IMG/VR virus record: IMGVR_UViG_3300032249_000542
Span: 1-64,000 of that record
DNA: 64,000 nucleotides
Source of the DNA: a virus
Direction: 5' to 3' (one strand)
Shown here: positions 24,786 to 44,136 of the stretch, in pieces
How positions within the stretch are numbered: position 1 is the first letter of the stretch
Layout of the letters: the number at the start of each line of letters is the position of its first letter
The notes under the pieces: generated by a model
What the model was told of the DNA's origin: nothing
Seen by the model: the letters and a program-made list of their open reading frames with translations, nothing else
Database searches by the model: none
Made by a program: the position numbers and the translations under genes

Positions 24786-24873
24786 GGAAGTGTGGCTGAG
24801 TGGTTTAAGGCAGCGGTCTTGAAAACCGTCGTATCGAAAGGTACCGTGAGTTCGAATCCCACCACTTCCGCCA
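24786..24873 (+). tRNA. tRNA-Ser(UGA)
   Basis: Acceptor GGAAGTG/CACTTCC, anticodon TGA in a CGGTCT-TGA-AAACCG context, long type II variable arm, T loop TTCGAAT, encoded CCA. Confidence 0.95.
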
Positions 24874-24878
24874 GTAAT

Positions 24879-24970
24879 GGAAATATGGCTGAGAGGCTTA
24901 AGGCAGCGGTTTGCTAAACCGTCGATCATGTTAAAATGGTCCGTTGGTTCGAATCCAACTATTTCCGCCA
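24879..24970 (+). tRNA. tRNA-Ser(GCU)
   Basis: Acceptor GGAAATA/TATTTCC, anticodon GCT, long variable arm, T loop TTCGAAT, encoded CCA. Only five bases after the first Ser tRNA. Confidence 0.95.
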
Positions 24971-24975
24971 GTTAT

Positions 24976-25053
24976 GGTTAGGTGGCTGAGTGGTCCAAAG
25001 CAGCAGTCTGCAAAACTGTAAAACCGTCGGTTCAAATCCGACCCTAACCTCCA
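24976..25053 (+). tRNA. tRNA-Cys(GCA)
   Basis: Acceptor GGTTAGG/CCTAACC, anticodon GCA, discriminator U, encoded CCA. Confidence 0.93.
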
Positions 25054-25111
25054 TTATTAAAATGGAAACATGTTGTCAAAATGATACTGTTGTATTTACG
25101 CAACAAACTAA

Positions 25112-25162
25112 TTGTTGACATATAGCGGGTCTTTTGATATAATAGATTTTGTTGAGTTGATA
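25112..25162 (+). promoter_or_regulatory. First of two identical promoters in the RNA island
   Basis: TTGACA 25115-25120, 17-bp spacer (TATAGCGGGTCTTTTGA), TATAAT 25138-25143. The 51-bp segment is repeated exactly 101 bp downstream. An imperfect GTTGTA/CAAC inverted repeat lies at 25089-25104. Confidence 0.85.
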
Positions 25163-25178
25163 GAGAAAAAGAAAAAAG

Positions 25179-25263
25179 TGTTGTTTTTATACAACAAACT
25201 AATTGAAATAAGTTGTTGACATATAGCGGGTCTTTTGATATAATAGATTTTGTTGAGTTGATA
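25179..25263 (+). promoter_or_regulatory. Second identical promoter with palindrome, upstream of ncRNA copy A
   Basis: Palindrome TGTTGT-TTTTAT-ACAACA (25179-25196), then TTGACA 25216-25221, 17-bp spacer, TATAAT 25239-25244. The 51-bp repeat copy is 25213-25263. Predicted start 25251. Confidence 0.85.
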
Positions 25264-25273
25264 AAGAAAAAAA

Positions 25274-25436
25274 ACAGACAAGTGCGGTCTGTCTCTGTAA
25301 AGAGTTAAGCAAGGGTTTGGTGCAGTAATGACTTCGGCACCATGTAATAGTCAGTTCCTTGTTAGCATTAGATCAGATGGTAGGCAACTACCCAATGGTT
25401 GTAGGTGACGATGGGCTTTATAGGAACCTTCAAGAT
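25274..25436 (+). ncRNA. Structured ncRNA, copy A of a two-copy family
   Basis: Stems: ACAGAC/GTCTGT; CTCT-GTAA-AGAG with a GNRA-type loop; TTAAGCAAGG with CCTTGTTA enclosing TGGTGC/GCACCA; hairpin GGTAG-GCAA-CTACC; then a 23-nt block (25393-25415) and TATAGGAACCTTCA (25419-25432), both identical in copy B. No ORF. Placed straight after a strong promoter and inside the tRNA array. It matches no RNA family I can name. Confidence 0.75.
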
Positions 25437-25446
25437 TTTAAAAAAA

Positions 25447-25640
25447 ACGGAAATGAGCAATCCGTCTCTGAAAAGAGTTTAACAAGGGTGTGGTGCGTTA
25501 ATACTGCTTCGGCATCACGTAATAGCGATCCTTGTTAATGTTCGAGATCAAACGGCATAGGAAATACTACACAAGTTTGTGTAGTACGTAGCTATGACAA
25601 TGGTTGTAGGTGACGATGGGATTCTATAGGAACCTTCAGA
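25447..25640 (+). ncRNA. Structured ncRNA, copy B
   Basis: Same architecture as copy A with changed but still pairing stems: ACGGA/TCCGT; CTCT-GAAA-AGAG; TTAACAAGG/CCTTGTTAA; TGGTGC/GCATCA; and a longer hairpin TACTACACAA/TTGTGTAGTA (25565-25586) where A has GGTAG/CTACC. Keeps the 23-nt block (25598-25620) and TATAGGAACCTTCA (25625-25638). A third tail-like piece, CAGGAACCCTCAAGAATTTA, lies just before tRNA-Glu. Confidence 0.75.
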
Positions 25641-25688
25641 TTATTATCGGTTGTGGGTATACGGGTACAGGAACCCTCAAGAATTTAT

Positions 25689-25763
25689 GCACCGTTCGTC
25701 TATCGGTTAGGACCCCGCCCTTTCACGGCGGTAAGAGGAGTTCGATTCTCCTACGGTGTACCA
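25689..25763 (+). tRNA. tRNA-Glu(UUC)
   Basis: Acceptor GCACCGT/ACGGTGT, anticodon TTC within CCGCCCT-TTC-ACGGCGG, T loop TTCGATT, encoded CCA. Confidence 0.95.
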
Positions 25764-25819
25764 GTTTATTTTTTAGGAGAGTCCATTATGGACAGCGATA
25801 AGAGTATTAACAAAACGAA

Positions 25820-25895
25820 GGAGCTATAGTCAAACGGTTAAGACAGCGGACTTTTAATCCGTCAGGTCAGGGTTCGAATCCCTGTGGCTCCACCA
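25820..25895 (+). tRNA. tRNA-Lys(UUU)
   Basis: Acceptor GGAGCTA/TGGCTCC, anticodon TTT, T loop TTCGAAT, encoded CCA. The CCA is also the start of a long inverted repeat. Confidence 0.95.
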
Positions 25896-26002
25896 TAGTA
25901 AAGCATATTTCAGGTTGGACTATTTCTAGAATAGTTATTTGGGTCGGTAGATGGGATTTGATGCCTAATCGAGACTAAGATACGGAGTATGCTTTACTAT
26001 GG
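25893..26002 (+). ncRNA. Inter-tRNA stem-loop RNA closed by a 15-bp perfect stem
   Basis: CCATAGTAAAGCATA (25893-25907) pairs with TATGCTTTACTATGG (25988-26002). Inside is a further hairpin ACTATT/AATAGT. The stem begins in the CCA of tRNA-Lys and ends six bases before tRNA-Gln. Confidence 0.6.
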
Positions 26003-26008
26003 TTCAGA

Positions 26009-26082
26009 TGGGAATTGGTGAAATGGTATCACACCGGATTTTGATTCCGAGGTTGTAAGTTCGATCCTTACATTCCCTGCCA
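26009..26082 (+). tRNA. tRNA-Gln(UUG)
   Basis: Acceptor TGGGAAT/ATTCCCT with an unpaired first position (U1-U72), anticodon TTG in CGGA-TT-TTG-AT-TCCG, T loop TTCGATC, discriminator G, encoded CCA. Confidence 0.92.
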
Positions 26083-26088
26083 TCTATA

Positions 26089-26460
26089 ATTAGACGGTAT
26101 GTTTGAGTTCTGCAAACTCCTAGAGTTAATTGTGGTTGACTTGCATACCGTGACAATCTAATGAGTTCATCCAGTATGAATAGTTAGGCATTAGTTTTTA
26201 CTTGAGTTATGGCAAGTGGTCCATAAACAGGAGTGTAACCTGATAGGCATAGAAAATAAATGCTTAACGTGATGAGCCAGTTTTGACCGTGGGCTTTAGG
26301 CAAGAAACACATAAGAAAACGGCAGGCGCTAAACAAGATTACAATCGCCTAGGTAATCAAGAATATGGTTCCAAAGTGTTCATGGACGCACGTATGCCTG
26401 TCACGCATAAAGAAGGGGATCGTTACCCCTTGGGACCGCCAAAGTATTTTTAACTGATGG
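26089..26460 (+). ncRNA. Long structured non-coding region with H-type pseudoknot
   Basis: About 370 bases without a convincing ORF. Stems: ATTAGA/TCTAAT with CGGTATG/CATACCG enclosing GAGTT-CTGCA-AACTC (26089-26162). An interleaved pair AGGCG (26324-26328)/CGCCT (26346-26350) and GATTAC (26337-26342)/GTAATC (26353-26358) forms an H-type pseudoknot. Then TATGC/GCATA (26393-26409) and AAGGGG/CCCCTT (26413-26431). Does not show RNase P, tmRNA or intron signatures. Confidence 0.6.
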
Positions 26461-26467
26461 AGATAAA

Positions 26468-26656
26468 ATGAGTAAAGTTTACTTAGGTCGTTTTAATCAG
26501 TATAAAGTTGGCACTAGAATTGCCACTGGTATGAAAGAAGCAAAGTTTTATCAACGTGGTTATATGTTGATGAGCGGTAAAGAATATAAGATTGAAAAAT
26601 TAAACAAGATTGTCCGAGTGTGGCACGATATTGATGAAGGTTTTATTGTAGTATAA
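26468..26656 (+). CDS. Small protein encoded within the tRNA array
   Basis: 62 aa with a GGAG site seven bases before the ATG. Basic and Tyr-rich (SKVYLGRFNQYKVGTRIATG, KEYKIEKLNKIVRVWHDID). Probably a small beta barrel. No family recognised. Confidence 0.6.
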   Translation: MSKVYLGRFNQYKVGTRIATGMKEAKFYQRGYMLMSGKEYKIEKLNKIVRVWHDIDEGFIVV

Positions 26657-26664
26657 AATTCTAT

Positions 26665-26740
26665 TCCGAGATAGCTCAGCGGTAGTAGCAGTTGACTGTT
26701 AATCAATTGGTCGTAGGTTCGATCCCTACTCTCGGAGCCA
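26665..26740 (+). tRNA. tRNA-Asn(GUU)
   Basis: Acceptor TCCGAGA/TCTCGGA, anticodon GTT in TTGACT-GTT-AATCAA, discriminator G, encoded CCA. Confidence 0.95.
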
Positions 26741-26748
26741 GTTTCAAT

Positions 26749-26833
26749 GGAGATGCGGCGCAGTTGGAGAGGCGCGGCTGACTGTAAATCAGTTCTTTCG
26801 GGTGAGTAGGTTCGAATCTTACCATCTCCACCA
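26749..26833 (+). tRNA. tRNA-Tyr(GUA)
   Basis: Acceptor GGAGATG/CATCTCC, anticodon GTA in CTGACT-GTA-AATCAG, long type II variable arm (85 nt total), encoded CCA. Confidence 0.95.
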
Positions 26834-26835
26834 AT

Positions 26836-26910
26836 GGTGTCTATAGTGTAGTGGAAGCATTGCTCTCTGTGAAAGAGTAGGTACGGGGTCGGTACCCGTT
26901 AGACACCCCA
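26836..26910 (+). tRNA. tRNA-His(GUG)
   Basis: Has the extra G-1 opposite C73 (GGTGTCTA/TAGACACC), anticodon GTG, encoded CCA. Starts two bases after tRNA-Tyr. Confidence 0.93.
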
Positions 26911-26913
26911 AGG

Positions 26914-26970
26914 TTAAGTTTACAATGGCAGCATTTTAAGTTTACAATGGTAGCGTTTTAAGTTTACAAT
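26914..26970 (+). repeat. 22-bp tandem repeat, about 2.6 copies
   Basis: TTAAGTTTACAAT recurs at 26914, 26936 and 26958 with intervening GGCAGCATT and GGTAGCGTT, filling the spacer between tRNA-His and tRNA-Arg. Confidence 0.85.
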
Positions 26971-27045
26971 CGGTCTTTAGTAAAATGGATATTACGGTTG
27001 GCTACGAACCAGCAAGTGGGAGTTCGATTCTCTCAGGACCGGCCA
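26971..27045 (+). tRNA. tRNA-Arg(ACG)
   Basis: Acceptor CGGTCTT/AGGACCG, anticodon ACG in GTTGG-CTACGAA-CCAGC, T loop TTCGATT, encoded CCA. Decoding CGY/CGA would need A34 deamination by host TadA. Confidence 0.92.
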
Positions 27046-27112
27046 TAATGAAATACATTTCGATGCTGTTCCGCGGCAGCGACCAAAAAGAGAGAAGTGT
27101 ATTTCATTATGG
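27043..27112 (+). ncRNA. Inter-tRNA stem-loop closed by a 15-bp perfect stem
   Basis: CCATAATGAAATACA (27043-27057) pairs with TGTATTTCATTATGG (27098-27112), enclosing GCTG/GGCAGC-type inner hairpin around TTCCGC. It spans from the CCA of tRNA-Arg to the first GG of tRNA-Met, the same design as 25893-26002. Confidence 0.6.
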
Positions 27113-27185
27113 TAATGTAGCACAGCGGTAGTGCAGCTCCTTCATACGGAGTTGGTCGGGAGTTCGAATCTCTCCATTACCACCA
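27111..27185 (+). tRNA. tRNA-Met(CAU), elongator type
   Basis: Acceptor GGTAATG/CATTACC, anticodon CAT in CTCCTT-CAT-ACGGAG, discriminator A, encoded CCA. Confidence 0.9.
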
Positions 27186-27187
27186 AT

Positions 27188-27263
27188 GCCGATTTAGCTC
27201 ATCAGGTAGAGCAGTTGATTTGTAATCATCAGGTGGTGGGTTCGAGTCCTGCAATCGGCACCA
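27188..27263 (+). tRNA. tRNA-Thr(UGU)
   Basis: Acceptor GCCGATT/AATCGGC, anticodon TGT in TTGATT-TGT-AATCAT, T loop TTCGAGT, encoded CCA. Confidence 0.95.
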
Positions 27264-27271
27264 GAATTTAT

Positions 27272-27348
<77 letters not shown>

Positions 27349-27356
27349 GTATTAAT

Positions 27357-27432
27357 GGGGGTGTAGCTCAGCTGGGAGAGCGGTTGCTTTGCAAGCAATA
27401 GGTAGCGGGTTCGAGTCCTGTCACCTCCACCA
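27357..27432 (+). tRNA. tRNA-Ala(UGC)
   Basis: Acceptor GGGGGTG/CACCTCC, anticodon TGC in TTGCTT-TGC-AAGCAA, encoded CCA. Confidence 0.95.
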
Positions 27433-27434
27433 AT

Positions 27435-27509
27435 GCCGATTTAGCTCAGTGGTAGAGCACCGTCTTGATAAGGCGGGGGTCCTTGGATCGTTCCCAAGAA
27501 TCGGTACCA
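27435..27509 (+). tRNA. tRNA-Ile(GAU) with unusual T loop
   Basis: Acceptor GCCGATT/AATCGGT, anticodon GAT in CGTCTT-GAT-AAGGCG, encoded CCA. The T loop reads ATCGTTC between CTTGG and CCAAG: the usual U54-A58 pair appears swapped to A54-U58 while U55 and C56 are kept. Confidence 0.88.
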
Positions 27510-27516
27510 GTTTTAT

Positions 27517-27592
27517 TGCGGGTTAGGGAAGTGGTCATCCCGTTAGGCTCATAACCTGAAGATCGTTGGTTCGAATCCATCACCCGCAACCA
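27517..27592 (+). tRNA. tRNA-Met(CAU), initiator-like
   Basis: Acceptor TGCGGGT/ACCCGCA, anticodon CAT within AGGCT-CAT-AACCT, 3' end CCCGCAACCA as in bacterial fMet tRNA. The first pair is U1-A72 and the three G-C pairs of the anticodon stem are not kept, so initiator function is uncertain. Confidence 0.88.
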
Positions 27593-27605
27593 ACAAAGGT
27601 GAACT

Positions 27606-28076
27606 ATGAAAAAAGTTATTGACATTGACGAAGTAAAAGAGTATATTAGTCATTGTGGTCCAGATACTAAGATTTATCTTGGTGCGGACTCTGAACGATT
27701 TCAGATAGGTAAAGAATGGTTCGCCGATTATATTTTAGTTGTCGTTATACATATTGATGGATGCCATGGTTGTAAAATCTTTGGTTCTGTTGAGCGTGAG
27801 CGAGACTATGAGGTAAAGAAAAGTAAACCACGTATGCGTTTAATGAACGAGGTTTATAAAGTTGCTGACTTGTATTTGAAAATGGCAGATATACTTGAGG
27901 ATTTTGAAGTCGAGGTTCACCTTGATATCAACCCAAGTGAGATGCATGGTTCAAGTTGCGTTATTAATGAAGCGATAGGTTACATTCGTGGTATGTGTAA
28001 TGTTATACCACTTGTAAAACCAAAAGCATTCGCAGCAAGTTATGCAGCAGATAGATATAAAAGTTTTGCAGGTTAA
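27606..28076 (+). CDS. RNase H-like fold protein (DUF458 type)
   Basis: 156 aa inserted in the tRNA array. IYLGADSERFQIGKEWFADYILVVVIHIDG and FGSVERERDYE...KPRMRLMNEVYKVADLYLK, then VEVHLDINPSEMHGSSCVI, match the PF04308 RNase H-like family seen in T4-type phages and Firmicutes. The Asp/Glu residues could form a nuclease site; a role in tRNA or replication RNA processing is conceivable but inferred. AAAGGTGA site upstream. Confidence 0.7.
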   Translation: MKKVIDIDEVKEYISHCGPDTKIYLGADSERFQIGKEWFADYILVVVIHIDGCHGCKIFGSVERERDYEVKKSKPRMRLMNEVYKVADLYLKMADILEDFEVEVHLDINPSEMHGSSCVINEAIGYIRGMCNVIPLVKPKAFAASYAADRYKSFAG

Positions 28077-28077
28077 T

Positions 28078-28153
28078 GCGGGAATAGCTCAGTTGGTAGA
28101 GCGTGTGCTTGCCAAGCATAAGGTCGAGAGTTCGAGTCTCTTTTTCCGCTCCA
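28078..28153 (+). tRNA. tRNA-Gly(GCC)
   Basis: Acceptor GCGGGAA/TTTCCGC, anticodon GCC in GTGCTT-GCC-AAGCAT, discriminator U, encoded CCA. Confidence 0.95.
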
Positions 28154-28157
28154 GTAT

Positions 28158-28231
28158 TACGGTGTGGCGTAGTGGCAGCGCAGGAGTCTCCAAAACTCTT
28201 AGTGGGGGTTCGATTCCCTCCACCGTAGCCA
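28158..28231 (+). tRNA. tRNA-Trp(CCA)
   Basis: Acceptor TACGGTG/CACCGTA, anticodon CCA in GAGTCT-CCA-AAACTC, discriminator G, encoded CCA. Confidence 0.93.
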
Positions 28232-28239
28232 AGTTTAAT

Positions 28240-28313
28240 GCGGGATTAGTTTAATGGTAAAACGAAAGCCTTCCAAGCTCTAGTCATCAGTTCGATTCTG
28301 ATATCCCGCTCCA
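28240..28313 (+). tRNA. tRNA-Gly(UCC)
   Basis: Acceptor GCGGGAT/ATCCCGC, anticodon TCC in AGC-CTTCCAA-GCT, T loop TTCGATT, encoded CCA. Confidence 0.93.
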
Positions 28314-28321
28314 AGTTTTAT

Positions 28322-28396
28322 GCACCGTTAGCTCAGCGGTAGAGCAACTCCCTTACAAGGAGAAGGTCTGCGGTTCGATCCCGTGACGGTGTACCA
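28322..28396 (+). tRNA. tRNA-Val(UAC)
   Basis: Acceptor GCACCGT/ACGGTGT, anticodon TAC in CTCCCT-TAC-AAGGAG, encoded CCA. Same acceptor sequence as tRNA-Glu of this array. Confidence 0.95.
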
Positions 28397-28397
28397 T

Positions 28398-28473
28398 GCT
28401 ACTTTAGCTGATGTGGTCATAGCGGCGGTTTGAAGAACCGTTGAACGTGGTTCGATTCCACGAGGTAGCACCA
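28398..28473 (+). tRNA. tRNA-Phe(GAA)
   Basis: Acceptor GCTACTT/AGGTAGC, anticodon GAA in CGGTTT-GAA-GAACCG, encoded CCA. Confidence 0.95.
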
Positions 28474-28479
28474 AGTTAT

Positions 28480-28556
28480 GCGCTGGTGACGGAACTGGTA
28501 TACGTGTTGGTCTTAGAAACCAAATTTTAGGAGTTCGACTCTCCTCTGGCGCACCA
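28480..28556 (+). tRNA. tRNA-Leu(UAG) with a short variable arm
   Basis: Acceptor start GCGCTGG and Leu-type D arm GACGGAACTGGTATACGT, anticodon TAG in TTGGT-CTTAGAA-ACCAA, encoded CCA. Only 77 nt: the long variable arm normal for Leu tRNAs is replaced by about seven bases (ATTTTAG). Confidence 0.88.
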
Positions 28557-28557
28557 T

Positions 28558-28634
28558 GGGCCTTAAGCATAAGTGGTATAGGCAACCGACTCATAATCGG
28601 TAGACAGTTGGTTCGAATCCAACAAGGCCCACCA
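28558..28634 (+). tRNA. tRNA-Ile2(CAU), lysidine type
   Basis: Acceptor GGGCCTT/AAGGCCC, anticodon arm CCGACT-CAT-AATCGG as in bacterial tRNA-Ile(CAU), discriminator A, encoded CCA. Decoding AUA would need host TilS. Confidence 0.82.
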
Positions 28635-28636
28635 AT

Positions 28637-28711
28637 CTGGCGTTAGTTCAATGGATAGAACAGTAGCCTTCTAAGCTATAAATGCAGGTTCGATTCCTGC
28701 ACGCCGGACCA
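28637..28711 (+). tRNA. tRNA-Arg(UCU)
   Basis: Acceptor CTGGCGT/ACGCCGG, anticodon TCT in TAGCCT-TCT-AAGCTA, encoded CCA. Last tRNA of the array; decodes AGA/AGG, frequent in this AT-rich genome. Confidence 0.95.
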
Positions 28712-28752: not shown

Positions 28753-28787
28753 TAAATAGTGAAGCAGTACCAACCAAGGAGAAACTT

Positions 28788-28862
28788 ATGAAATGGACTA
28801 CCCCCTCAGCACAAGATATGCGTTTTGGTTTTGAAATCACAATGTATATTGCAAATCGCTAA
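28788..28862 (+). CDS. pqqA: PqqA, precursor peptide of pyrroloquinoline quinone
   Basis: 24 aa, the normal PqqA length. Starts MKWTTPSAQDM and ends FGFEITMYIANR, matching the consensus of bacterial PqqA, with the Glu16 and Tyr20 pair (ExxxY) that PqqE cross-links and PqqF, B, C and D convert to PQQ. An excellent AAGGAG site lies eight bases before the ATG, and a terminator hairpin follows directly. No pqqB, C, D or E is seen near, so the host must supply those enzymes. The peptide would feed host PQQ synthesis during infection, which is inference; the identity is strong. Confidence 0.9.
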   Translation: MKWTTPSAQDMRFGFEITMYIANR

Positions 28863-28866
28863 AAAG

Positions 28867-28887
28867 AAAGGACCTTAGGGTCCTTTT
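28867..28887. terminator. Bidirectional terminator
   Basis: AAAGGACC (28867-28874), loop TTAG, GGTCCTTT (28879-28886) with A runs and T runs on the two sides. Separates pqqA from the convergent minus-strand genes and overlaps the stop of the first of these. Confidence 0.8.
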
Positions 28888-32514: not shown

Positions 32515-33175
32515 AAATTTAACTCATTATGTATTTGTTGATGGAAAGCAATTTAATAAAAGCGTGGATGAGCTTACAACGGGACTTCCAAATATTCAGC
32601 GTGTTTATTTGGAAGAAAACGTCGGTAAAGGTTGGTATGGTCATCGTGTATACGCTGCATCTTCTTTCTTGGTTAACGCTGATGTCATATGTTACCTTGA
32701 TGAGGACAATTGGTTTGATATACATCATGTTGAGGACTTGGTCAGCGTTCTTGAAAAGGGCAATGATTGGGCTTATTCGTTAAGGAAAATTTATGATAAA
32801 GATGGTGAGTTCGTTTGTAATGATGAATGTGAATCGCTTGGTAAATGGCCTATCTACTTTGATGATAGAGCCTTTCATATCGATACTAGCAGTTTCGCTG
32901 TTCGCCGTAATGTTGCAGTCCAAATAGGACATGCATGGTATGGGCAATGGGGTGCGGATCGTCAATTCTTTAATGCTATCAAACAACACTTTCCTAAGTT
33001 TGATTGTACGAGGAAACATTCAATGTGTTATCGTTTAGATGGTAACGAGAATTCTGTAACAAAAGAATTCTTCATTGAAGGCAACAAAGCAAATCATCAA
33101 AAATATAATTCACAATTACCCTGGTTACAAGAACCTAAGGGTGAACTGATTGGTCCTGGGATAACATTAATATGA
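32432..33175 (+). CDS. Family 2 glycosyltransferase (GT-A)
   Basis: 247 aa. KVAVVTPTVGAKQLEQCVQSV opens the nucleotide-binding half; VICYLDEDNWFDIHHVEDL carries the DxD-type DED motif. The sequence AYSLRKIYDKDGEFV and later AFHIDTSSFAVRR look like the acceptor side. A sugar from a nucleotide donor would go to a phage or host glycan. Coupled to GalE by a four-base overlap. Confidence 0.82.
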   Translation: MKVAVVTPTVGAKQLEQCVQSVQNQTYKNLTHYVFVDGKQFNKSVDELTTGLPNIQRVYLEENVGKGWYGHRVYAASSFLVNADVICYLDEDNWFDIHHVEDLVSVLEKGNDWAYSLRKIYDKDGEFVCNDECESLGKWPIYFDDRAFHIDTSSFAVRRNVAVQIGHAWYGQWGADRQFFNAIKQHFPKFDCTRKHSMCYRLDGNENSVTKEFFIEGNKANHQKYNSQLPWLQEPKGELIGPGITLI

Positions 33176-34116
33176 AAACAGCATTGATTACTGGTGTATC
33201 GGGTTATCTCGGTTCGCACGTTGCAAAAGAATTGAAGAAGGCAGGATGGAAAGTTATTGGGTTAGATATAGTTCATACAATTAATCCTTACATCGATATT
33301 TTTTACTTGTGTAATATATCGGATGCTGTCTCGCTAGATGAATTGTTCAGTAGGGTAAAAATCGACACAGTTTTTCACTTTGCAGGATTGATTGAAGTTG
33401 GTAGTTCAGTTAAAAATCCTGCTGGGTATTGGAAAACAAATGCCGGTGGAACAATCAATCTTTTAGATATTATGAAACGTCATAAAGTAGAAAATATTCT
33501 TTATTCATCTACTGCTGGGTTGTATGAAACAAATAGTATTTTGCTTAATGAAGAATGTCCTCTCAATCCAGACAACAATCCATACGCAGGAAGTAAGTAT
33601 GTAGCAGAAATTGCGATTAAACAGTCGGGATTGAATTATCAGATTTTTAGATACTTCAATTTAGCAGGTGCTGATCCTGACGGTGAGTTTGGTGAGAATC
33701 ATTTTCCTGAAACACACTTGATTCCACGAATCTTTGAAAATCTAAATAACTTCACAATTTATGGCAATGACTATGATACAGTAGATGGCACTTGTGTTAG
33801 GGATTATGTTCACGTATCCGATGTTGCCGAAGCACATGTATTGGCTGCAAACAATTTAAATAACCTCACAATCAATCTAGGTACCGGAGTAGGATACTCG
33901 GTAAAAGAGATAGTCAACTTGGTAGAATTTGTAACGGGTAACAGAGTTAATTTCACTTTCGGTGAAAGACGAGGTGGTGACCCATCACAACTAGTTGCCG
34001 ATATCACTCTTGCCAAAGAGTGCTTGCACTACCGTCCCAAACATAGTATAGTTTCTATTATTGACACAGCATATAAATGGCATTCACAAAATGAAAAAAG
34101 AACCGATACAGTTTGA
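33172..34116 (+). CDS. galE: UDP-glucose 4-epimerase-type NAD-dependent epimerase
   Basis: 314 aa short-chain extended dehydrogenase. LITGVSGYLGSH is the NAD fingerprint, YSSTAGLYE and Tyr138-x3-Lys142 (YAGSK) are the active site, then GTCVRDYVHVSDVAEAH and RRGGDPSQLVAD, characteristic of GalE. Makes UDP-galactose or related sugar. Paired with the GT2 enzyme, supplying its donor. The gene extends into the clpP start by 26 bases. Confidence 0.88.
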   Translation: MKTALITGVSGYLGSHVAKELKKAGWKVIGLDIVHTINPYIDIFYLCNISDAVSLDELFSRVKIDTVFHFAGLIEVGSSVKNPAGYWKTNAGGTINLLDIMKRHKVENILYSSTAGLYETNSILLNEECPLNPDNNPYAGSKYVAEIAIKQSGLNYQIFRYFNLAGADPDGEFGENHFPETHLIPRIFENLNNFTIYGNDYDTVDGTCVRDYVHVSDVAEAHVLAANNLNNLTINLGTGVGYSVKEIVNLVEFVTGNRVNFTFGERRGGDPSQLVADITLAKECLHYRPKHSIVSIIDTAYKWHSQNEKRTDTV

Positions 34117-34615
34117 ATCTAATCACTTCCTTACTGGTGATATTAATAACGAAAATATAGAATCTGCAATGAAGTGGGTAGTCGATGCAAATGAAAAAAA
34201 AGTTCCAAGTATAATATCATTATATATTAATTCAGATGGTGGTGATCTGGCAGGTGCTTTTGCATTAATTGACGTTATGCGTGTATCCGCAGTTCCCGTT
34301 TCAACTATTGGTATTGGGAATATAATGAGTTCTGCTTTTATGATATTTGCTTCTGGAACAAAAGGACATCGTGCAATATCAAAAAACACTAGCATAATGA
34401 TGCACCAATTTCATCATGACTTTGGTGGCAAGTATCATGACATAAAAGCATTCTCACAAGAATTTGATCGTATTAATCAAAGAATGCTTAATACGCTTAT
34501 TGATTGTAGTGGTATGTCAGAAGATGATGTAAGGAAGTATCTACTTGGACCAACTGATTCTTGGATTGATGCGTATCAGTTGAAAGAGTATGGAATTGCT
34601 GACTATATTTTTTAA
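34091..34615 (+). CDS. clpP: ClpP-like serine protease
   Basis: 174 aa from the ATG at 34091; an upstream in-frame start at 34061 is less likely. S14 features: SLYINSDGGDLAGAFALID, IMSSAFMIFASGTKGHR with the nucleophile Ser80/81, SIMMHQF with His105 and TDSWIDAYQLKEYGIAD with Asp156. No ClpX is near; it may use a host ATPase or act in prohead maturation. Overlaps galE. Confidence 0.85.
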   Translation: MKKEPIQFESNHFLTGDINNENIESAMKWVVDANEKKVPSIISLYINSDGGDLAGAFALIDVMRVSAVPVSTIGIGNIMSSAFMIFASGTKGHRAISKNTSIMMHQFHHDFGGKYHDIKAFSQEFDRINQRMLNTLIDCSGMSEDDVRKYLLGPTDSWIDAYQLKEYGIADYIF

Positions 34616-40156: not shown

Positions 40157-40725
40157 TGAATATTTTTTACCTAGATCATGATGTACGAAAATGTGCAGAA
40201 ATGCATAACGACAAACATTGCGTAAAGATGATTCTCGAATATGCTCAACTTCTCTCTACTACTCATCGTATTCTTGATGGTGTTCTTTCTATTGGTGTCA
40301 GTCCATCTGGCAGGAAGAAAACTGTATATGTGCTTGCCGATCAGCGTGATACCATTCTTTACTCTGCTACTCACGTTAATCATCCGTCTGCTGTATGGGT
40401 AAGACAGTCAGATAAGAACTATGATTGGCTATTTGCTTTGTTTCAAGCATTGATGGACGAATATACATATCGTTATGGTAAAATACATGCGTGTTCAAAA
40501 TTAGAAATTGGACTTGCTCGAATACCCGAGAATATTCCACAAGCACCATTTACTGAACCAACACCTGCAATGCCCGATACTTGCAAAGTGAAAAATGATT
40601 CGATTTCTTCATATCGAAACTACTATATAATGAATAAGACGCATCTAGCAAACTGGAAAAATCGTCCTATCCCTGAATGGTACAATGACAATACTCCGAG
40701 AATCTACGAACCTCAAGCATCGTGA
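40156..40725 (+). CDS. Conserved phage protein (Pyr_excise-like)
   Basis: 189 aa. MNIFYLDHDVRKCAEMHNDKH and MILEYAQLLSTTHRI open it, then THVNHPSAVWVRQSDKNYDWL. Homologues in T4-type phages are often named pyrimidine dimer DNA glycosylase-like. The N-terminal His/Asp pattern is conserved, but the catalytic amine of T4 endonuclease V is not evident, so repair activity is unproven. Confidence 0.6.
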   Translation: MNIFYLDHDVRKCAEMHNDKHCVKMILEYAQLLSTTHRILDGVLSIGVSPSGRKKTVYVLADQRDTILYSATHVNHPSAVWVRQSDKNYDWLFALFQALMDEYTYRYGKIHACSKLEIGLARIPENIPQAPFTEPTPAMPDTCKVKNDSISSYRNYYIMNKTHLANWKNRPIPEWYNDNTPRIYEPQAS

Positions 40726-41227
40726 AGTAGAGCAAACTAAGTTTGTTCAATATCTTTTGAGTGGAAACATAGTCGAGAAGGATTATGTTTCCTTTCTTTT
40801 TGAATTCCGAACAATCTATGAAGTTATAGAACGATTAAATCATAAGTATGGATATCTGGAAGGATTAGAAGGAATCGAACGTGCTGAATCAATACATGAT
40901 GACTTGTTTGAATTAAACGATAGTTATTTCAGACCATTACTACCTTCTACAATAAAATATCTAGACCGTTTGAATGAATTGTCTGAAGATGAATCAAAGA
41001 GAAATTTATTATTTGCCCATGTATATGTTCGACACATGGGAGACCTTTATGGAGGAAAATTAATTGCTCGCCTTATCCCTGGTTCTGGTCGCATGTATCA
41101 GTTTGATGATCGTCCTAGATTAATCAAATCATTTAATGAAAAACTTACAATGGATTTAGCTGATGAAGCGAATCTAGCATTTGATTATTACATATCAATA
41201 TTTGACGAACTATATGCCAACTTATAA
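40685..41227 (+). CDS. Heme oxygenase
   Basis: 180 aa. Opens heme to biliverdin, iron and CO. LRESTNLKHREVEQTKFVQYL carries the proximal heme ligand His12; HVYVRHMGDLYGGKLIARLIPGSG holds the GDLxGG motif (about 119-124) over the distal heme face; the end LADEANLAFDYYISIFDEL is typical. The start overlaps the previous gene by 41 bases. Cyanophages use such enzymes for bilin pigments. No bilin reductase is seen here, so iron release from heme is a likely alternative role, which is inference. Confidence 0.85.
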   Translation: MTILRESTNLKHREVEQTKFVQYLLSGNIVEKDYVSFLFEFRTIYEVIERLNHKYGYLEGLEGIERAESIHDDLFELNDSYFRPLLPSTIKYLDRLNELSEDESKRNLLFAHVYVRHMGDLYGGKLIARLIPGSGRMYQFDDRPRLIKSFNEKLTMDLADEANLAFDYYISIFDELYANL

Positions 41228-43040: not shown

Positions 43041-43169
43041 ATGAATGAAGAAAAGAAAGAACGTGACTATAGCAAGATGACCAAGGGCGATTACTATTGG
43101 GATAAGTTTATGAGTGTTATGTGGTTATTATTCATTGTCTCAATCGTCTCTGGTGGCTTCTATAGGTAA
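43041..43169 (+). CDS. Small single-span membrane protein
   Basis: 42 aa. Charged start (NEEKKERDYSKMTKGDYYW), one helix (VMWLLFIVSIVSGGF). GGAG site seven bases upstream. It is the first gene of the transcript that carries the tmRNA acceptor piece. Function unknown. Confidence 0.55.
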   Translation: MNEEKKERDYSKMTKGDYYWDKFMSVMWLLFIVSIVSGGFYR

Positions 43170-43174
43170 AGAAT

Positions 43175-43237
43175 TGTTGTAACCCCTTCAAAGCGAAGGC
43201 ATGTTGGACGAGGGTTCGATTCCCTCCATCTCCACCA
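43175..43237 (+). ncRNA. ssrA: tmRNA acceptor piece (3' part) of a circularly permuted two-piece tmRNA
   Basis: Holds a T arm GAGGG-TTCGATT-CCCTC (43210-43226), acceptor 3' strand CATCTCC (43227-43233), A73 and CCA ending at 43237. It has no 5' acceptor strand of its own; this lies 28 bases downstream as GGGGATG, the only partner that completes the acceptor stem. The 5' boundary is approximate. AACCCC near 43181 can pair with GGGGTT of the coding piece. Confidence 0.85.
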
Positions 43238-43265
43238 GAAGCATATTGTGTAGTGTGTTTCTGAT

Positions 43266-43436
43266 GGGGATGACCTGGTTTCGACAGCGTGAGATAGTGG
43301 AGACGGCAACACGGTAGGCGATGACCGTTAATCAAGCAAAACTACAAATGCAAATGACGCATTTTATGGTGAAGATCGCCTAGCAGCGTAACTCACTTGG
43401 GGTTTCGGGAGTGTCCTTATTAACCAATCACTCCCA
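43266..43436 (+). ncRNA. ssrA: tmRNA coding piece (5' part) with proteolysis tag
   Basis: Begins GGGGATGACCTGGTTTCGACA, the classic tmRNA 5' end. The tag ORF (43350-43391) reads ANDAFYGEDRLAA and stops with TAA; AND at the start and LAA at the end are standard. Downstream GGGGTT can pair with the acceptor piece, and GGGAGTG/CACTCCC closes the 3' end. Lies after its own acceptor piece, i.e. permuted. Role: rescue of stalled ribosomes and tagging of partial proteins. Ends approximate. Confidence 0.87.
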
Positions 43437-43452
43437 CCAAATTCTATATATT

Positions 43453-44136
43453 ATGAAAATCTATAAATCAAATTATCGTAATCATTGGGTTTCTCCATAC
43501 GTTATACTGGAGAAGGTTTTCTTTTGGCGTGAAATTGATTACGATGAACCACTTATCAAAAAACTTTCCGATTTTCTCGATCCGTTTTCCGTAGCATGGC
43601 TAAAGTTTCTTGACTTTGTACATCCACGTATCAACTATGTGAAGATTGACCGTTATGATACATGGTCAATGGATTCTACATTAGCTGATATCATTCTACC
43701 GATGCTGAAGCAGATGAAAGCAACAAAGCATGGTTCACCAACGGTTGATGATGATGATTTGCCAGAAGAACTGCGTGTTGTTGCACACAAAGATTGGTCG
43801 CAACAACTTGCATTTGAATTTGATGACCATGAACAATACGAAAAGGATTCGTGGGATTTGCAACATCGTCGTTGGGAATGGGTTCTCGATGAGATGATTT
43901 TTGCCTTTGAACACTATGTTGATGATACATGGGAAGAAGCATTCCGTTCAGGTGAACATGATATGATACATGTGCCATGCGAATGGTATGAAGATGGCAG
44001 ACCCAAACTTTACTCAATTGAAAAAGGACCGAACGATACCTACGTATGCGACTATGAAGGTATGAATAAAGTATACAAACGAATGGAGAATGGATTCTGT
44101 TTGTTTGGTAAGTATTACAGAGGACTGTGGGACTAA
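43453..44136 (+). CDS. Conserved T4-type phage protein of unknown function
   Basis: 227 aa from the ATG at 43453 (longer opening upstream lies in the tmRNA). NHWVSPYVILEKVFFWREID, INYVKIDRYDTWSMDSTLAD, ILPMLKQMKATKHGSP and WEWVLDEMIFAFEHYVDD are conserved among many tailed phages. No function is assigned. Aromatic and acidic. Confidence 0.75.
   Translation: MKIYKSNYRNHWVSPYVILEKVFFWREIDYDEPLIKKLSDFLDPFSVAWLKFLDFVHPRINYVKIDRYDTWSMDSTLADIILPMLKQMKATKHGSPTVDDDDLPEELRVVAHKDWSQQLAFEFDDHEQYEKDSWDLQHRRWEWVLDEMIFAFEHYVDDTWEEAFRSGEHDMIHVPCEWYEDGRPKLYSIEKGPNDTYVCDYEGMNKVYKRMENGFCLFGKYYRGLWD

Follow-up and report, generated by a model that had tools for sequence, protein, structure and literature searches.

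Results

Organisation of the pqqA locus

The window, by which we mean the whole 64,000-nucleotide stretch analysed, comprises positions 1 to 64,000 of IMG/VR record IMGVR_UViG_3300032249_000542 (169,777 bases; G000). The terminase of this record shares 53% identity with terminases of T4-like cyanophages and 52% with that of pelagiphage HTVC008M; the list of open reading frames (ORFs) also includes recognisable tail and replication genes. We read the record as a genuine T4-like phage genome with a homologue of a host metabolic gene. Features of the window, with the evidence for each, were assigned as follows.

24786-28711, + strand: array of 25 tRNA genes, directly 5' of pqqA (ARAGORN, Rfam)
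28753-28759, + strand: TAAATAG, candidate late promoter element of the T4 type (hexamer enrichment and conservation)
28776-28782, + strand: Shine-Dalgarno sequence AAGGAGA (sequence)
28788-28862, + strand: pqqA, encoding the 24-residue PQQ precursor peptide MKWTTPSAQDMRFGFEITMYIANR (sequence; PF08042; TIGR02107)
28866-28887, + strand: hairpin terminator GAAAGGACC-TTAG-GGTCCTTTT, 3' of the pqqA stop codon (fold; folding z-score -3.1)
34061-34615, + strand: Clp protease-like protein (PF00574, E 3e-29), adjoining a sugar epimerase at 33172-34116
40685-41227, + strand: heme oxygenase (PF01126, E 1e-18)
43126-43482, + strand: permuted (two-piece) tmRNA (ARAGORN), of the betaproteobacterial type (RF01850 match at 43126-43439)

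Besides the Clp protease and heme oxygenase, genes for an RNase H-like protein, a T4-type RNase H, GP88 and PhoH are among the neighbours of pqqA in the window. The tRNA array covers nearly all amino acids. Heme oxygenase genes are known from cyanophages, and the one found here lies in a phage with no evident cyanobacterial host. The tag predicted by ARAGORN for the tmRNA is odd (ANDAFYGEDRLAA); permuted tmRNAs were also seen on four other pqqA contigs (L035, L051, L052 and L079). Elsewhere in the record, an ORF at G000:C1:128329-128958 was judged by eye to encode a peptide deformylase-like protein.

Identity of the peptide

The ORF at 28788-28862 (+ strand) consists of 24 codons followed by a TAA stop. 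When the whole record was searched, this ORF was the only PqqA match. It scored 37.4 bits against PF08042 (E 8.2e-10; cut-off 21.1), spanning profile positions 1-19, and 38.4 bits against the equivalog model TIGR02107 (E 7.6e-10; cut-off 20), spanning positions 1-21; both alignments cover the full length of the profile. None of 14 control genomes gave a PF08042 match. The Glu-x-x-x-Tyr pair that is joined by PqqE is present in the translation as E16 (28833-28835) and Y20 (28845-28847). Each element of the identity proposed in the sequence-only reading thus holds: a phage-encoded PqqA, which passes the curated cut-offs of both models named for checking it, the ExxxY pair, and a 24-codon gene with a good ribosome site, AAGGAGA, placed 5 bases ahead of the ATG. 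From its sequence, the identity of the ORF as a true pqqA is confirmed.

Expression signals

Of the hexamers found 5' of ORFs in this phage, TAAATA is the most enriched (25 ORFs, z 9.8); many of its sites precede structural genes. At pqqA, TAAATAG lies 35 bases 5' of the start codon within a block, TTAAATAGNGNAGCAGTAC, that is kept in the related contigs L017 and L047; about 0.03 such sites would be expected by chance per 60 bases. No sigma-70-type promoter site was found 5' of the gene. The TAAATAG element hints at late, T4-type transcription of pqqA.

Search for other pqq genes

To look for the remaining pathway, a model search of whole records was made for PqqE, and PqqB, C and D were looked for beside the loci. 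PqqE did not exceed the cut-off in any of 39 viral pqqA records, the phage record included; only weak radical-SAM matches, far below the cut-off, were obtained, as compared with 524 bits in a control bacterium. Local tblastn searches with PqqB, C, D and E found pqqBCDE beside viral pqqA in none of about 240 listed loci except one (L133), and the same procedure placed pqqB next to pqqA in 77 of 104 bacterial loci. The exception, CAKLQF020000010.1 (“Acinetobacter phage MD-2021a”), was rejected as a pqq-encoding phage, being a mislabelled bacterial contig with a full pqqABCDE operon. No pqqB, C, D or E was seen among the ORFs listed around the window gene. The earlier statement that the window lacks pqqBCDE is therefore borne out by the ORFs surrounding the gene and by the absence of PqqE from the whole record: the gene is a lone pqqA and not part of a pqqABCDE operon. 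PQQ-dependent dehydrogenases, methanol or other, were likewise absent from all 39 viral records, that of the window among them.

Viral copies in IMG/VR

A DNA pattern built on the C-terminal half of PqqA matched at least 120 IMG/VR stretches, and every site listed, the window loci included, proved to be a short PqqA ORF, either whole or as a truncated end. To avoid circularity, a second scan used a pattern from W3 to F15 only, leaving E16 and Y20 free, and again at least 120 stretches were matched. Among the matches listed, for viral loci of both scans, ExxxY was kept at 199 of 199 W3-F15-pattern sites. In a wider viral set it was present in 228 of 228 copies listed, every one of which ended 22 codons after the tryptophan. 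Nearly all of the viral copies listed have a ribosome site and many have a hairpin terminator. Values of pN/pS for the pooled set were set aside because the search pattern had fixed part of the peptide. Recalculation on codons free of the pattern gave 0.20 for the C-terminal half (pS 0.85) and 0.28 for the N-terminal half (pS 0.52). The phage peptide is under strong purifying constraint, with synonymous change near saturation.

Forty-six of the 228 viral copies are identical to host peptides. At the seventh position from the tryptophan (residue 9 of the window peptide), glutamine occurs in 45 of 228 viral copies but was never seen among 164 bacterial copies, which in this respect differ from the window peptide. 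As far as the sampling of hosts allows, this glutamine form suggests long residence in phages. Distribution among relatives is patchy: of 20 phage contigs chosen by terminase, most of them fragments, none exceeded the PF08042 cut-off, and the sole sub-threshold match was weak and covered profile positions 1-13. One viral contig of 364 kb (L050, IMGVR_UViG_3300042350_002797) has a lone pqqA adjoining a tRNA array.

Published phage genomes

INPHARED (50,697 records) was searched with the window peptide as query. Twelve records matched, of which two belong to the bacterial contig set labelled “Acinetobacter phage” and ten are genuine phages. Nine of these are Methylophilales/Methylophilaceae phage records, namely Melnitz (four strains), Venkman, P19250A, MEP301, MEP401 and MEP402, a tally that does not include MEP431-434, Venkman EXVC038S, MG-MTP1 or RSA-MFP1, all of which are listed in the taxonomy. 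The tenth is the environmental podovirus ctXG6705, from a spring. Queries with two further PqqA types, as in Methylobacterium and Klebsiella, added no phage from INPHARED.

Like the window, the Methylophilales phages Melnitz, Venkman, P19250A, MEP301, MEP401 and MEP402 have a lone pqqA ORF with ExxxY kept, and PqqE was found in none of five such records tested. Melnitz, whose host is a cultured methylotroph, also shares with the window peptide the MKW start and a glutamine ahead of [DE]M. The C-termini of the Methylophilales phage peptides are VTMYVMNK, VTMYVLNK or VTMYIMTR, as opposed to ITMYIANR in the window. Venkman and MEP301, when compared over a 6-kb stretch, have about 140 bases in common at the pqqA site and otherwise do not match, as would be expected of a small moving cassette.

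None of the six phage regions examined has a PqqA label at the pqqA site; at most there is an overlapping “hypothetical protein”, which in Melnitz and ctXG6705 is on the other strand. Publications describing Melnitz, Venkman, MEP301 and MEP401/402 make no mention of pqq genes. Phage pqqA has probably been missed because ORFs of 23-25 codons are not called.

Bacterial copies and the host

PqqA was found in 76-78 of 399 genomes of the order Burkholderiales. Small genomes of 1.3 Mb (about 36% GC at the loci), which from their size we infer to be OM43/Methylopumilus-like, have two to three dispersed pqqA copies that match the phage type WTTPAATEMRFGFEVTMYVMNK exactly; neither pqqB nor pqqC was found beside the copies examined in them. 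Other genomes of the order have up to eight copies. At three bacterial loci (L365, L367 and L374), two or three pqqA genes lie in tandem within 1 kb. A 3.0-Mb metagenome-assembled genome titled Candidatus Methylopumilus (L158/G033) was not used as a methylotroph; the sample of its family consists mostly of 2-6-Mb genomes, and it is probably misnamed. The window-type sequence RFGFEITMYIANR is common in Burkholderiales. Chromosomal pqqA of Comamonadaceae, Oxalobacteraceae and Limnobacter share it with the window peptide, at an overall identity of at most 88%; unlike the lone window gene, Burkholderiales chromosomal copies mostly lie ahead of pqqB.

The host of the window phage is probably a freshwater betaproteobacterium, and the betaproteobacterial type of the tmRNA points to that host class. 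Closer assignment by either tmRNA or peptide was rejected. Among the 399 genomes, the closest tmRNAs, in 1.9-2.3-Mb genomes of one family, reach a best identity of only 77% over 155 bases, and no PqqA was found in those genomes. Peptide type was not accepted as proof, since Melnitz, which has an OM43 host, lacks the VTMYVMNK type that the small methylotroph-like genomes have. A T4-like phage can therefore differ from its host in peptide type, and RFGFEITMYIANR was not used to infer the host of the window phage.

Discussion

Proposed mechanism

We assign a probability of roughly 0.7 to the reading that the window gene is a true pqqA by which the phage would supply extra substrate peptide, from which host PqqBCDE would make PQQ. 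During infection the phage would produce additional PqqA, perhaps late; host PqqD and PqqE would bind it and cross-link E16 to Y20, and the remaining host enzymes would convert the cross-linked peptide into PQQ. PQQ would then be more abundant in infected cells. PQQ-dependent dehydrogenases, and hence respiration, might stay active despite the shut-off of host genes, to the benefit of the phage. Methanol dehydrogenase, which the sequence-only reading gave as an example, may be among the enzymes served by the window gene.

Substrate feeding is the best-supported mechanism because the residues targeted by PqqE are invariant, the gene stands alone, and hosts themselves multiply pqqA alone. One PqqA is consumed for each PQQ, and the pathway enzymes are reused, which makes the substrate the component that it would pay to supply. 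Methylophilaceae have 3-12 pqqA genes but a single pqqBCDE set (PMC4109929), which indicates that such hosts already raise substrate supply by itself. Their extra copies resemble the window gene in being precursor genes with no additional pqqBCDE (PMC4109929), and differ from it in that they are chromosomal, within the host, rather than on a phage. In one methylotroph strain with five pqqA copies, expression differs among them (PMC9851590). Addition of PqqA alone to a cell-free Gluconobacter extract gave 70-80% conversion to PQQ, in work cited in PMC9851590. The peptide is not always limiting, since pqqAB raised PQQ in Acetobacter by 29%, as against eightfold with pqqABCDE (PMC7936290).

Alternative explanations

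The substrate-feeding reading assumes a dosage effect, and the same gene might instead stand in for host PqqA lost to genome degradation or silencing, so that PQQ would be maintained and not raised above normal. We consider this unlikely, though it is the strongest of the alternatives. T4-like phages shut off host transcription, and this, together with the possible late promoter element and the consumption of one peptide per PQQ, would suit replacement; sequence alone does not separate it from the dosage reading. It is improbable that the peptide is a decoy that occupies PqqD and PqqE, either lowering host PQQ or diverting the radical SAM enzyme. Outside the core, phage copies do differ from the majority of host copies sampled, as the glutamine counts show, yet loss of the glutamate or the tyrosine would be expected of a decoy. 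Both are kept in all viral copies listed, which makes a decoy unlikely, and the 46 phage copies identical to host peptides also argue against it.

Very little weight is given to the idea of a functionless, neutral passenger gained with the tRNA array or from a host. The gene does follow the last of 25 arrayed tRNA genes, a kind of site at which foreign genes collect in phages, and it is patchy among terminase relatives, but pN/pS is 0.2-0.3 with synonymous sites near-saturated. Moreover, almost every copy has a ribosome site and many have a hairpin terminator, which speaks against a passenger, as does the occurrence of lone pqqA in several unrelated phage groups with differing neighbourhoods. 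That a chance short ORF merely resembles PqqA, as might be supposed for a peptide of only 24 residues, is refuted: the match has an E value of 8e-10 over a full profile in a whole-record search, it passes the curated cut-offs of two models, and hundreds of conserved copies exist in other phage contigs. The match is more than chance because the peptide is kept across independent phage contigs and none of the 20 contigs chosen by terminase exceeds the cut-off.

Novelty and significance

The sequence-only reading had interpreted the gene as an unusual auxiliary metabolic gene that feeds only the substrate peptide to a host possessing the enzymes. Its PqqA identity stands and its mechanism is the best supported of those considered; “unusual” does not hold, as a report of pqqA in a phage dates from 2020 (PMC7678222) and the gene is widespread in phages. 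The Lake Baikal phage population VP_266 (Coutinho et al. 2020, PMC7678222) is T4-like and is reported to have pqqA together with methanol dehydrogenase; its pqqA was suggested to help a methylotroph oxidise methanol by the PQQ-dependent route, and a peptide deformylase was also reported. By description, it is like the window phage a freshwater T4-like phage encoding PqqA, and it differs in its reported methanol dehydrogenase, which the window record lacks. pqqA has also been listed among viral genes of a reservoir sediment (PMC13188868).

The distribution seen here comprises ten published phage genomes and at least some two hundred contigs from several lineages, one of them a 364-kb record, and the remaining pathway genes are nearly always missing. 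In the literature searched, we found no report of phage pqqA on this scale. With somewhat less assurance than for the mechanism, we consider lone pqqA likely to be a general, long-resident cargo in phages of PQQ-dependent betaproteobacteria, in T4-like, siphovirus-like and podovirus lineages. If so, phages that infect these hosts would have in common a need for substrate supply of a peptide-derived cofactor and would possess PqqA lineages of their own, such as the glutamine form. Short-peptide cargo genes of this kind escape phage annotation. Melnitz, Venkman, MEP301 and P19250A, which carry pqqA, were isolated on cultured hosts, and the proposal is therefore directly testable; the OM43 culture medium as published supplies PQQ at 1 nM. 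Because synthesis of PQQ uses up a peptide, a phage gene of 75 bases could drive an entire cofactor pathway. If this holds, phages that infect abundant aquatic methylotrophs and related bacteria would tune quinoprotein dehydrogenases during infection, which would bear on the turnover of C1 compounds in lakes and seas.
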